Below are positions 3,182 through 31,342 of a DNA stretch of 39,964 nucleotides, piece by piece. The DNA is taken from contig NW_003112965.1 in assembly GCF_000003605.2 (NCBI RefSeq), positions 171,503 through 211,466 on the forward strand. Reading direction: 5' to 3'. The first letter of the stretch is position 1. Each line of letters starts with the position of its first letter. Under the pieces are notes generated by a model that saw nothing but the letters and a program-made list of their open reading frames with translations, was not told where the DNA came from and made no database searches. A program made the position numbers and the translations under genes. The DNA is from Saccoglossus kowalevskii. Taxonomy: Eukaryota > Hemichordata > Enteropneusta > Harrimaniidae.

Positions 3182-3291
3182 ATCATACGCTGTATATCTG
3201 TGGTAAACCATGTTTTAGGTGTCAGTTTAGCGGCGACTGCCGGTGTTGACTGTATACTACTTGCCGGACTTGATGCATGTGTATTTAGCGG
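3182..3291 (-). CDS. SUPT3H: SUPT3H coding exon 2
   Basis: This 110-base exon encodes 36 codons and leaves two bases (AT). The first half is rich in Ser, Thr, Ala and Pro, and it ends with KLTPKTWFTTDIQRM, the entry to the histone fold. The acceptor is TTTACAG at 3292 after a TTTCTCTTTTCC tract. The donor is AT|GTAAGT at 3181. Confidence 0.78.
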
Positions 3292-29100: not shown

Positions 29101-31342
29101 TGCAATGCTTCACTATGTTTGTCATGACATCATTCATCAATCTCTCACTGAATAACAAAATATTTATAAATGAGAGAAACCAATATTAATCTATCCGTTA
29201 TACAGCAGCAGCCTTTTTTAATTATCCTTCAATTTTTTTTCACTTTTTAAGAAGTGTAAGTTTCTCTACAAAAGATTTAGGTCAGTCTATTGTTGTATTG
29301 GGTAATTATTGTGAACTTGCATGTGTCTTGTATCGTTGGTGTTTTTTCGGGGATAAACACTGTAATATTTTGGTATGTGGTTGTGAATATCTGGCCCAGA
29401 TGCACCCACACAGACACAATGCCTTTTGTTATGTAGATGAACAAGGCAGCCTGCATTGGGTTATGCCCGTAGGCCGCTATATATGTATTCTAATTAGTGT
29501 CTGTTTATTAATAACCACTCTCGCCACAGATTTCAGCCACAAGTTGACTTACAATCAAGGGTCGGTTAGACCTATAGTAAACAGGAATAATTTGAGTTCT
29601 TGTGTTTGAGAAGACAGCACTGGTCAGTGCACCGCTAGGAATGCATGTACTTTGGTTGGATTGTGTAAAAGATAGGGGTACCAATATGTCTGAAATAAAA
29701 TGGTAGGGATATTTCTGGTGATTTTCACAACTGTACTAGCACCCAGTTCTTTGCATATCAGCATGTAATTAAATATGTTGCCATGGAATACAAATAAAAA
29801 TATTGATGATTTTAATGAATAGAAGTTTTTAGAACTGCATTTTGTGAATAAAATTTTGTATTTATTACAACATTTTACAAAGAAAAACACACACATACAC
29901 AAAAAAGATTAAGCCATTTAAAATAAGTTTGCAAATATTAGTTGAAAAAAAATTATAACATACAAAACTATTCAATAAAAATTAGAAAAAAATATCAAAC
30001 TATTAACAACAAATATAAAGAAAACACTGTATTCTGTGAAAATGTTTAACTTTTGTAACAAAATCTTCACAAAAGAAATCACAAAAAAAATCAGCAAAGT
30101 AACAATAATCAATTATCACTAATAATAATCTTAATTTAAATTAATATAAAAGATAAAAATAATTATTCATAAGACATTTATTTTAGTGAAGAAAACTTTT
30201 ATTATGAAAAAGAAGTACATGATTGAAAATAAGAATTTTGAAATGTGTGATAAAAAAATAACATATGACCTGACATATGACCCACATCTACAATGTACAT
30301 GCTAGTAGTATCTTTAGTGACGACTTTAGCGATCTTGAAAAAGTTCTATAAAATCATTGTTATTCGGTTGATGCATTTTTATTAAGTGAACACATGGCCA
30401 GTCTCTTATATGTGCACATTAACATTTTTATGTTCATGTGCCTGAATGAGGAAACCTATATAAATTATTATGTGCTATCAATCATGGTCTCTAATTTCTA
30501 TGTTTTTTTTCTCTTTTCTTCTCTTTTTGTATTTTCTGATAGAAGGACCCATGGCAAGTAGATCATTATCTGGATGGCCTTATGAATACCCAAGATACTT
30601 TGCACCAGCTATGCAGCATAGTGTTCCACAGCCGACAGCAGGACCCCCTCCACCACCACCACCGCCACCCCCACCACCTCCGCAGCCTACAGAAACAACT
30701 GTAACCATAGCAATGGAAAGACCAACTGTTAGTAGCAATGAAGTTTCCATGTTAACGCCGTTATATCCACGATCCAGTGATCCCAGATTCACCGATTCGG
30801 GAGCGACACACATCACTTTGGATGCACGAATAACAAGCCCAATGATGTCGACACCGAGAATTACAGATACTCGATTTGTTTATCCTTCAAGTCCACACAC
30901 TTTTACTTTCCCCACATCGGCAACAATACCAATATTGTCACCTGGCATTGATACAAGTCGATATTTGCCACTGCCATCACCTCACGATGTCTATCCAACA
31001 TCACCGTCTACGCCTGTAACATTACCTGCTTCCCCTTATATATCAGGATCCCCACCCTACCAACTATATGCCCATTTATACAGCACGCCCGCGCCGGCAT
31101 CCCATCCGCCATATTATGAAGGTACTCCACATTTATCTATGTTGCCAACCACAACAGTATCATCACGTATATCTACAATGATTGGACGCTCATCGCAGGG
31201 TAGCAACAGTAGCCATAGTAATGGTAACCAATCAACACAGTCAAGTCGATCAAATGGACGCCATGTGGCTGCTCCTAGTGGAAACCCGCCTTTGTATCCT
31301 GGCGATGACGAGGACAGAAAAGATGTGTGGAGACCCTACTAA
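4778..31342 (+). CDS. RUNX: RUNX (runt-domain transcription factor), 4 coding exons, 491 aa
   Basis: This is a sequence-specific transcription factor that binds TGYGGT with CBF-beta in the nucleus. The coding exons are 4778-5159, 6462-6566, 24826-25014 and 30543-31342; all three junctions are phase 1 with GT-AG borders, giving 1,476 bases. The Runt domain spans about residues 35-163. It includes [14 protein letters not shown], with Arg65 equivalent to RUNX1 Arg80, and ends in DGPREPRR, with Arg159 and Arg162 equivalent to RUNX1 Arg174 and Arg177, which contact DNA. PRRHKNK after the domain is the expected nuclear localisation segment, and [12 protein letters not shown] is the conserved post-Runt motif. 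The C-terminal half is rich in Pro, Ser and Thr, with a 13-proline run, a PPYY (PPxY-type) motif and a terminal VWRPY that recruits Groucho/TLE. An in-frame TGA at 4769 precedes the first ATG; a second ATG at 4838 has the better Kozak context and would give 471 residues. Which paralogue it equals is not defined; invertebrates usually have one. Confidence 0.97.
5160..6461 (+). other. RUNX intron 1
   Basis: This 1.3-kb intron runs from GTAAGA to TTTTCAG. Its first 500 bases are still CpG-containing like the promoter, then it becomes AT-rich. I see no gene or clear repeat in it. Confidence 0.9.
6462..6566 (+). CDS. RUNX: RUNX coding exon 2 (C-terminal Runt domain)
   Basis: This 105-base exon has phase 1 at both ends. 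It encodes the segment from [10 protein letters not shown] through [15 protein letters not shown] to DGPREPR, and the next codon is split as A|GG. The vertebrate exon encoding the same segment is, from memory, also 105 bases. Skipping it would keep the frame but remove two DNA-contact arginines' surroundings and so destroy DNA binding. Confidence 0.96.
7716..7773 (+). promoter_or_regulatory. nuclear receptor response element cluster (DR4 plus two DR1-like)
   Basis: AGGTCA-AGTG-AGGTCA at 7716-7731 is a perfect direct repeat with a four-base spacer. AGGGCA-A-AGTTCA at 7748-7760 is a DR1 of the HNF4/RXR type. AGGTCA-A-AGGATG at 7760-7772 is a weaker DR1 that shares one base with it. DR4 is the thyroid-hormone-receptor/LXR spacing and DR1 the HNF4/RXR spacing in general knowledge. 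Function here is inference. Confidence 0.5.
8686..8730 (-). promoter_or_regulatory. three spaced nuclear receptor half-sites
   Basis: TGACCT at 8686-8691 and 8705-8710 and TGACCC at 8725-8730 lie on one strand with spacers of 13 and 14 bases, about 0.9 kb from the DR4/DR1 cluster. The spacing does not match a standard direct repeat but approximates two helical turns per step. Confidence 0.3.
10081..10110. repeat. perfect 30-bp palindrome
   Basis: TTATATATACCTGA and its exact reverse complement TCAGGTATATATAA are separated by two bases (TG). It lies in RUNX intron 2 with no flanking terminal repeats that I can see. Confidence 0.8.
12226..12790 (+). repeat. polypyrimidine (C/T) tract, about 565 bp
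   Basis: The plus strand is almost only C, T and some A, with very few G, in loosely repeating blocks such as CACCTCTCTTTC and CCACCTCTCT. Open frames inside it are products of this composition. The tract could form triplex DNA, or act as a strong splicing-factor (PTB-type) binding stretch in the RUNX pre-mRNA; both are inference. Confidence 0.85.
13988..14174 (+). mobile_element. MITE copy A1, 187 bp, TA-flanked
   Basis: The left end TACTGTGAAATACTTTATTT and the inverted right end TACTGTAGAATACTTTATTT (read from 14174 leftward) match at 18 of 20 bases. TA at both borders fits the target duplication of Tc1/mariner-like elements. It is non-coding. A second copy, in inverted orientation, is at 26731-26942. 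Confidence 0.85.
15082..15097 (+). promoter_or_regulatory. SOX-POU composite-like motif
   Basis: CCATTGTTATGCATCA places a SOX core (CATTGTT) directly against a POU half-site (ATGCA), as in the vertebrate SOX2-OCT4 composite CATTGTTATGCAAAT. It lies in RUNX intron 2. Confidence 0.4.
18822..18990 (+). repeat. degenerate 40-bp minisatellite, about 4 units
   Basis: Units begin near 18871, 18911 and 18951 with CTTCAAACACCCCAGATG-like sequence followed by a CCCTTAACC-type segment; an earlier diverged unit begins near 18822. The units differ by many substitutions, so the array is old. Confidence 0.65.
19066..19203 (+). repeat. (TTTA)n microsatellite
   Basis: About 34 tandem TTTA units are interrupted once by GTATGTAT near 19157. 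Translated frames through it read as repeated FIYL and are not genes. Confidence 0.98.
19621..20163 (+). repeat. minisatellite, about 16 units of 24-39 bp with higher-order repeat
   Basis: Every unit carries AATCCATGCAGGATTTAG or a variant, followed by a GTAATCTTACACCCCCCTCC-type spacer. The unit core ATCCATGCAGGAT is almost self-complementary. A four-unit block that includes a variant core (CATGCACGGTTCAGG) recurs with an offset of about 149 bases (near 19885 and 20034), showing a secondary duplication. Frames on both strands are repeat artefacts. Confidence 0.95.
24826..25014 (+). CDS. RUNX: RUNX coding exon 3 (NLS and post-Runt motif)
   Basis: This 189-base exon has phase 1 at both ends. 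It completes the last Runt arginine, then encodes HKNKADE and [14 protein letters not shown] and ends ATYLT before donor GTAACG. It corresponds to the vertebrate exon carrying [13 protein letters not shown]. The acceptor is TTTTAG. Skipping it would be frame-neutral. An inverted pair of MITE copies flanks it. Confidence 0.95.
25349..25362. promoter_or_regulatory. RFX X-box-like palindrome
   Basis: GTTGCCATGGTGAT matches GTTRCCATGGYAAC except near the right end. It lies 335 bases after RUNX exon 3. Confidence 0.45.
26291..26333 (+). repeat. 15-bp tandem triplication
   Basis: CAAGAGATGAGGCTC occurs twice in full and a third time as CAAGAGATGAGGC. It is exact, so probably recent. Confidence 0.95.
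26731..26942 (-). mobile_element. MITE copy A2, 212 bp, TA-flanked
   Basis: The ends TACTGTAGAATACTTTATTT and (from 26942 leftward) TACTGTGGAATACTTTATTT match at 19 of 20 bases. The reverse complement aligns along its whole length with the copy at 13988-14174, including the internal GCTTTTTGGGTGTTTTGT-like and ACTGATTTTTGATGAG blocks. The two copies are therefore inverted relative to each other. Confidence 0.88.
28710..28723. promoter_or_regulatory. RFX X-box-like palindrome
   Basis: GTTACCATGGTGAC is one base from a perfect X-box palindrome, and a further half-site (CTATGGTAAT) lies just upstream at 28696-28705. Confidence 0.5.
30543..31342 (+). CDS. RUNX: RUNX coding exon 4 (C-terminal half, VWRPY)
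   Basis: This exon carries 800 coding bases and encodes residues 226-491 after a split GAA codon. It opens [19 protein letters not shown], has 13 prolines in a row at residues 260-272, and includes DPRF and FVYP segments that echo vertebrate SDPRMHYP. It also includes a [11 protein letters not shown] block that echoes vertebrate SPSYHLYY, and HPPYYEG, a PPxY-type WW-domain ligand. A Ser/Asn-rich stretch precedes an acidic end (GDDEDRKD) and VWRPY before TAA at 31340-31342. Vertebrates divide this region over two exons. Confidence 0.96.

Follow-up and report, generated by a model that had tools for sequence, protein, structure and literature searches.

A 39,964-bp stretch of the genome of the hemichordate Saccoglossus kowalevskii (contig NW_003112965.1; "the window" hereafter) carries a RUNX gene on the plus strand and, starting 1,047 bp away on the minus strand, a gene that is very probably, but not provenly, SUPT3H. 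We read the window as a further instance of the ancient divergent SUPT3H–RUNX pair, an arrangement that is already known and hence no discovery, and by analogy with vertebrates a regulatory block around RUNX would be the likeliest reason for its persistence; in these two propositions taken together we have good confidence. A first-pass annotation of the window had placed the pair between positions 3182 and 31342, both of which proved to be exact exon ends.

On sequence grounds, the identity of the plus-strand gene as RUNX is certain. Its model was built from splice signals and homology, without a transcript, and comprises four coding exons between 4778 and 31342 with GT/AG at all junctions, encoding 491 codons plus stop:

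4778–5159, plus strand: RUNX coding exon 1, with a P2-type start (MHIKA) and the first part of the Runt domain
6462–6566, plus strand: RUNX coding exon 2, with the remainder of the Runt domain up to GPREPR, matching RUNX structures in PDB
24826–25014, plus strand: RUNX coding exon 3 (RRHKNKADE...), part of the spliced model that matches RUNX structures in PDB
30543–31342, plus strand: last RUNX coding exon, proline-rich, with VWRPY followed by the stop codon

The Runt domain of the encoded protein is recognised by Pfam (PF00853, E = 7e-72, profile positions 3–129 of 129). At a cut-off of E = 0.001 the protein matches 17 distinct PDB sequences, which bear the names RUNX1, RUNX2, core-binding factor alpha or PEBP2, with RUNX1 chains reaching 3e-80. 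Over the Runt region, 108 of 131 positions are identical to the RUNX1 of PDB 4l0y. The protein ends in DVWRPY and so carries the C-terminal (V)WRPY Groucho motif; the coding part of the RUNX gene recognised in the first pass is complete. For comparison with MHIKA, PMC4236176 gives the P2 starts as MR(I/V)PV in vertebrates and MHIPV in lamprey. No relative of the N-terminal 173 amino acids was confirmed among eight pattern matches in viral_contigs or 43 in genome_contigs, as expected for an animal gene in such collections.

Several repeats accompany this gene. The 18-kb RUNX intron 2 holds a minisatellite with units of about 38/74 bp (19732–20165) and, as a microsatellite, 33 tandem copies of TTAT (19066–19198). 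Soon after the RUNX stop codon, and perhaps within the 3′ untranslated region (UTR), lies a 31-bp tandem repeat (32061–32292, 7.5 copies at 93%) that continues as 62/93-bp units to 32344. At 12091–12879 the plus strand is pyrimidine-rich (GC skew −0.26 in 12001–14000), with long open reading frames (ORFs) of up to 262 amino acids that are probably due to chance.

The minus-strand gene was found where the first-pass annotation had put it, about 1 kb from RUNX, with 1,047 bp between its ATG at 3730 and that of RUNX at 4778. The lysine-rich start and the WFTTDIQRM on which that annotation relied are seen in its first two coding exons:

3730–3650, minus strand: probable SUPT3H coding exon 1, 27 codons from the ATG at 3730, lysine-rich (MTKPKAKSKKTEKAKEQMGVNNPQETK), with a GTATTT donor and a phase 0 join
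3291–3182, minus strand: probable SUPT3H coding exon 2, with a TTTACAG acceptor and a GTAAGT donor, ending at the putative start of the SPT3 histone fold, as indicated by SPT3 profile tests

Together the two exons hold 63 whole codons, ending in WFTTDIQRM and then, two bases into the next codon, in AT directly before the GTAAGT donor. The spliced peptide reads MTKPKAKSKKTEKAKEQMGVNNPQETK PLNTHASSPASSIQSTPAVAAKLTPKTWFTTDIQRM(M), where the 64th residue, the second M, presumes G as the first base of the next exon.

The case for SUPT3H was assessed with a profile of human and two fungal Spt3 chains, using a nine-residue segment set where the fungal-to-human SPT3 chain alignments begin. With this profile the end of exon 2 is the best site in the window (25.3, next 19.7), and no site as good arose in 2 Mb of simulated sequence. 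Across three simulations of 8 Mb each, with three compositions, the profile score was met once and that of the human nine-mer four times; none of these sites had GT in place. A stricter eight-residue version (FTTDIQRM) used only codons lying wholly inside the exon, dropping the M whose last base lies outside. The end of exon 2 still came out as the window's top site with the profile (20.3, next 18.0) and with the human eight-mer (24, next 23). In two simulations, chance matches per 8 Mb numbered 20 and 24 with the profile and, with the human eight-mer, 18 and 15. Of these 77, three had GT in place, and the chance expectation is 0.004–0.005 in the 1.6 kb beside RUNX.

Alternatively, the minus-strand gene might be TAF13, or it might be unrelated and look like the start of SPT3 at the end of its exon 2 by chance; we regard this alternative as very improbable. 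The nine residues fit SPT3 above chance (scores of 29, 24 and 23) and TAF13 with a score of 18, which is chance level, since between 1,803 and 2,148 sites reach it in each simulated 8 Mb; moreover, the reported neighbour of RUNX is SUPT3H (PMC2674455, PMC3974841, PMC4236176). A number of observations nevertheless weigh against SUPT3H and in favour of this alternative. Only 63 codons are in hand, and the spliced 64 amino acids matched no Pfam family; neither they nor the 23 amino acids at the end of exon 2 matched an SPT3 structure in PDB, a piece of this length being too short for such searches. (The sole PDB match of the 64 amino acids, a matrix protein at E = 0.47, was dismissed as chance.) Comparing 11 residues with human SUPT3H gives weak evidence: the score is 25 as against 27 at an unrelated site in the window, and it was equalled in five of 20 simulated windows, in two of 20 with GT in place. 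The short test segment was picked after the match had already been seen, and with whole codons the chance expectation over the entire window is 0.20–0.24 matches.

Further SPT3 exons were sought on the minus strand of 1–3181: none was present among the 30 tblastn matches listed for first-histone-fold queries, and none was recognised by eye in ORF pieces of at least 18 amino acids. Only the first eight to nine residues of a histone fold of SPT3/TAF13 type are matched in the window; human SUPT3H chains have 299–317 residues, and the remaining, larger part of the protein was not seen in the window. The first-pass identification of the gene as SUPT3H therefore stands as very probable and unproven: the eight- and nine-residue SPT3 matches and the GTAAGT donor speak for it, whereas the remainder of SPT3 is unseen. 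We make the call because the match lies in the right place, on the right strand and at a good splice donor, beside a gene whose neighbour in other animals is known.

If the SPT3 call holds, the two genes have the layout of the ancestral SUPT3H–RUNX pair, being adjacent and on opposite strands with their 5′ ends together. Two features mark the region between them:

3731–4777, unstranded: divergent intergenic stretch between both start codons, with an observed/expected (o/e) CpG ratio of about 1
3001–6000, unstranded: CpG-rich block over both gene starts

The divergent stretch probably contains the promoters of both genes. Per kb, the CpG o/e ratio is 1.00, 1.09 and 1.10 across 3001–6000 as compared with 0.21–0.29 in 1–3000, and after 6000 it is 0.10–0.66 except for 1.03 in 38001–39000, so that the block resembles one unmethylated promoter region amid a CpG-poor stretch. 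Counting both strands, RUNX sites of the form [AGT]ACC[AG]CA occur three times in the 1,047-bp divergent stretch and 26 times in the window as a whole; RUNX autoregulation through the sites in the divergent stretch is not argued, three being too few.

The first-pass annotation had described the layout as the same as in vertebrates. This applies to the opposite strands and the adjoining 5′ ends, but the first exons of RUNX2 and SUPT3H are interlocked in jawed vertebrates, each lying within an intron of the other gene, according to PMC533870 (2004), PMC3974841 and PMC4236176, and here the genes stand head to head. A P1-like RUNX peptide sought in plus-strand positions 1–4760 gave a best score of 22 against a self-score of 67. 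The search for upstream RUNX exons, with a limited donor list, returned two weak ATG-to-donor candidates; no convincing distal P1-type exon was found inside the SUPT3H gene in this limited search for coding-type exons, which a 5′UTR-only exon would escape.

The pair has a substantial published record. Runx–Supt3h linkage is reported in PMC2674455 (2009) for the demosponge Amphimedon, Nematostella, Branchiostoma and Capitella, in PMC3974841 (2014) for amphioxus, and in PMC4236176 (2014) for amphioxus, sea anemone and sponge; the two papers of 2014 treat the linkage as ancestral or ancient, with a loss of Supt3h inferred at both Runx1 and Runx3. In discussing ancient regulatory domains, PMC5585340 (2017) cites RUNX2–SUPT3H as conserved between human and sponge. 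The first-pass annotation rightly dated the pair to before the vertebrate RUNX duplications, a point that these publications had already made.

RUNX is a regulated developmental gene, and SUPT3H encodes a SAGA subunit. To account for their long association, we propose that SUPT3H, with its histone-fold SAGA subunit, would be a broadly used bystander and RUNX the regulated gene. Control elements of RUNX may sit in, around or beyond SUPT3H, forming a genomic regulatory block; breaks between SUPT3H and RUNX would then be selected against because of the RUNX elements in and around the neighbour, and a need for joint expression of both genes would be a lesser reason for retention. According to the review PMC8533737, RUNX2 decreased when any one of three RUNX2 enhancers was deleted, with no effect on SUPT3H. 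Such an outcome speaks more for a bystander than for strict co-regulation. Shared regulation, which the first-pass annotation suggested may have kept the pair together, would have a smaller part in our model. Some points tell against the regulatory block: the model is carried over from vertebrates and not from the regulation of this genome, and work by Barutcu et al. from 2014, by its title reportedly on a three-dimensional structure common to the Runx2-P1 and Supt3h promoters, may fit shared regulation. To these may be added the lamprey, which PMC4236176 describes as having no Runx gene linked to Supt3h, so the link can break.

Two other explanations of the retention were weighed. That one bidirectional promoter must drive both genes is a possibility we regard as rather unlikely: the start codons, just 1,047 bp apart beneath one CpG-rich block, would suit it, but the jawed-vertebrate genes are interlocked and not simply head to head. 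Inertia, by which short divergent distances are seldom broken and no selection for the pair is involved, is in our judgement unlikely. Retention from sponge to mouse probably outlasts that of most gene pairs, and we count it against inertia. The conservation over this range is that reported in PMC2674455; in favour of inertia are the unlinked lamprey genes and the inferred losses of Supt3h at Runx1 and Runx3. The regulatory block remains our preferred explanation.

On the far side of RUNX, the window contains the last four exons of ATE1 (arginyl-tRNA-protein transferase 1; 39654–37482, minus strand), tail to tail with RUNX and absent from the first-pass annotation:

39440–39654, minus strand: fourth-from-last ATE1 exon, Pfam ATE_C at E = 1.6e-19, matching human ATE1 in PDB
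38415–38514, minus strand: third-from-last ATE1 exon, Pfam ATE_C at E = 5.5e-10 for the surrounding ORF
38043–38160, minus strand: second-from-last ATE1 exon, part of the spliced model that matches ATE1 in PDB
37482–37654, minus strand: last ATE1 exon with the stop codon, part of the spliced model that matches ATE1 in PDB

Pfam found the ATE_C domain in two of three ORFs scanned, the third being intronic, and the spliced C-terminal 201 amino acids match PDB 8tzv_A at E = 3.2e-75 with 117 of 200 residues identical. The gene order is thus SUPT3H(−), RUNX(+), ATE1(−), with 6.1 kb between the coding ends of RUNX and ATE1. A search of one open library for ATE1 as a RUNX neighbour returned no publication joining ate1, runx and synteny, which is no proof of novelty. 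It is a long shot that the three genes form an old block in which control elements of RUNX are scattered over both neighbours, and that vertebrate interlocking arose from a CpG-rich head-to-head arrangement like this one.

Two elements with terminal inverted repeats lie in ATE1 introns. The larger (38646–39102, 457 bp) has 27-nt repeats (93%) with the ends TACCATACTCGACCGCG and TACCGTACTCGACCGCG, and no clear target duplication was seen. In view of the CpG o/e ratio of 1.03 in 38001–39000 it is perhaps a young insertion; a second promoter at the CpG-rich 38–39 kb was set aside because this region largely coincides with the element. The smaller (38188–38356, 169 bp), in the next intron, has 29-nt repeats (86%) and ends that are also TACCATA/TACCGTA, and may be a relative of the larger one. 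Scans of the window returned no Rfam family at gathering score and no tRNA.

The window adds one more, compactly arranged case to one of the longest-kept animal gene neighbourhoods reported. Like the pairs of Amphimedon, Nematostella, Branchiostoma and Capitella (PMC2674455), it presents Runx beside a very probable Supt3h in a non-vertebrate animal; it differs from them in that only the start of SUPT3H is visible in the window. Within the Runt region, identity to RUNX1 is 82% here as compared with 90–95% between amphioxus and vertebrates over a slightly different region (PMC533870), a difference that by itself hints at an animal outside the vertebrates and amphioxus. With the jawed-vertebrate RUNX2–SUPT3H and the fugu RUNT–SUPT3H pairs the locus shares opposite strands and adjoining 5′ ends (PMC533870, PMC3974841, PMC4236176). 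It differs in that the first exons of jawed vertebrates are interlocked whereas the coding starts here are head to head, with only a P2-type start found in the limited search. The locus would be useful for asking whether interlocking is a derived trait of vertebrates and whether SUPT3H, as a bystander, became trapped beside a developmental regulator.

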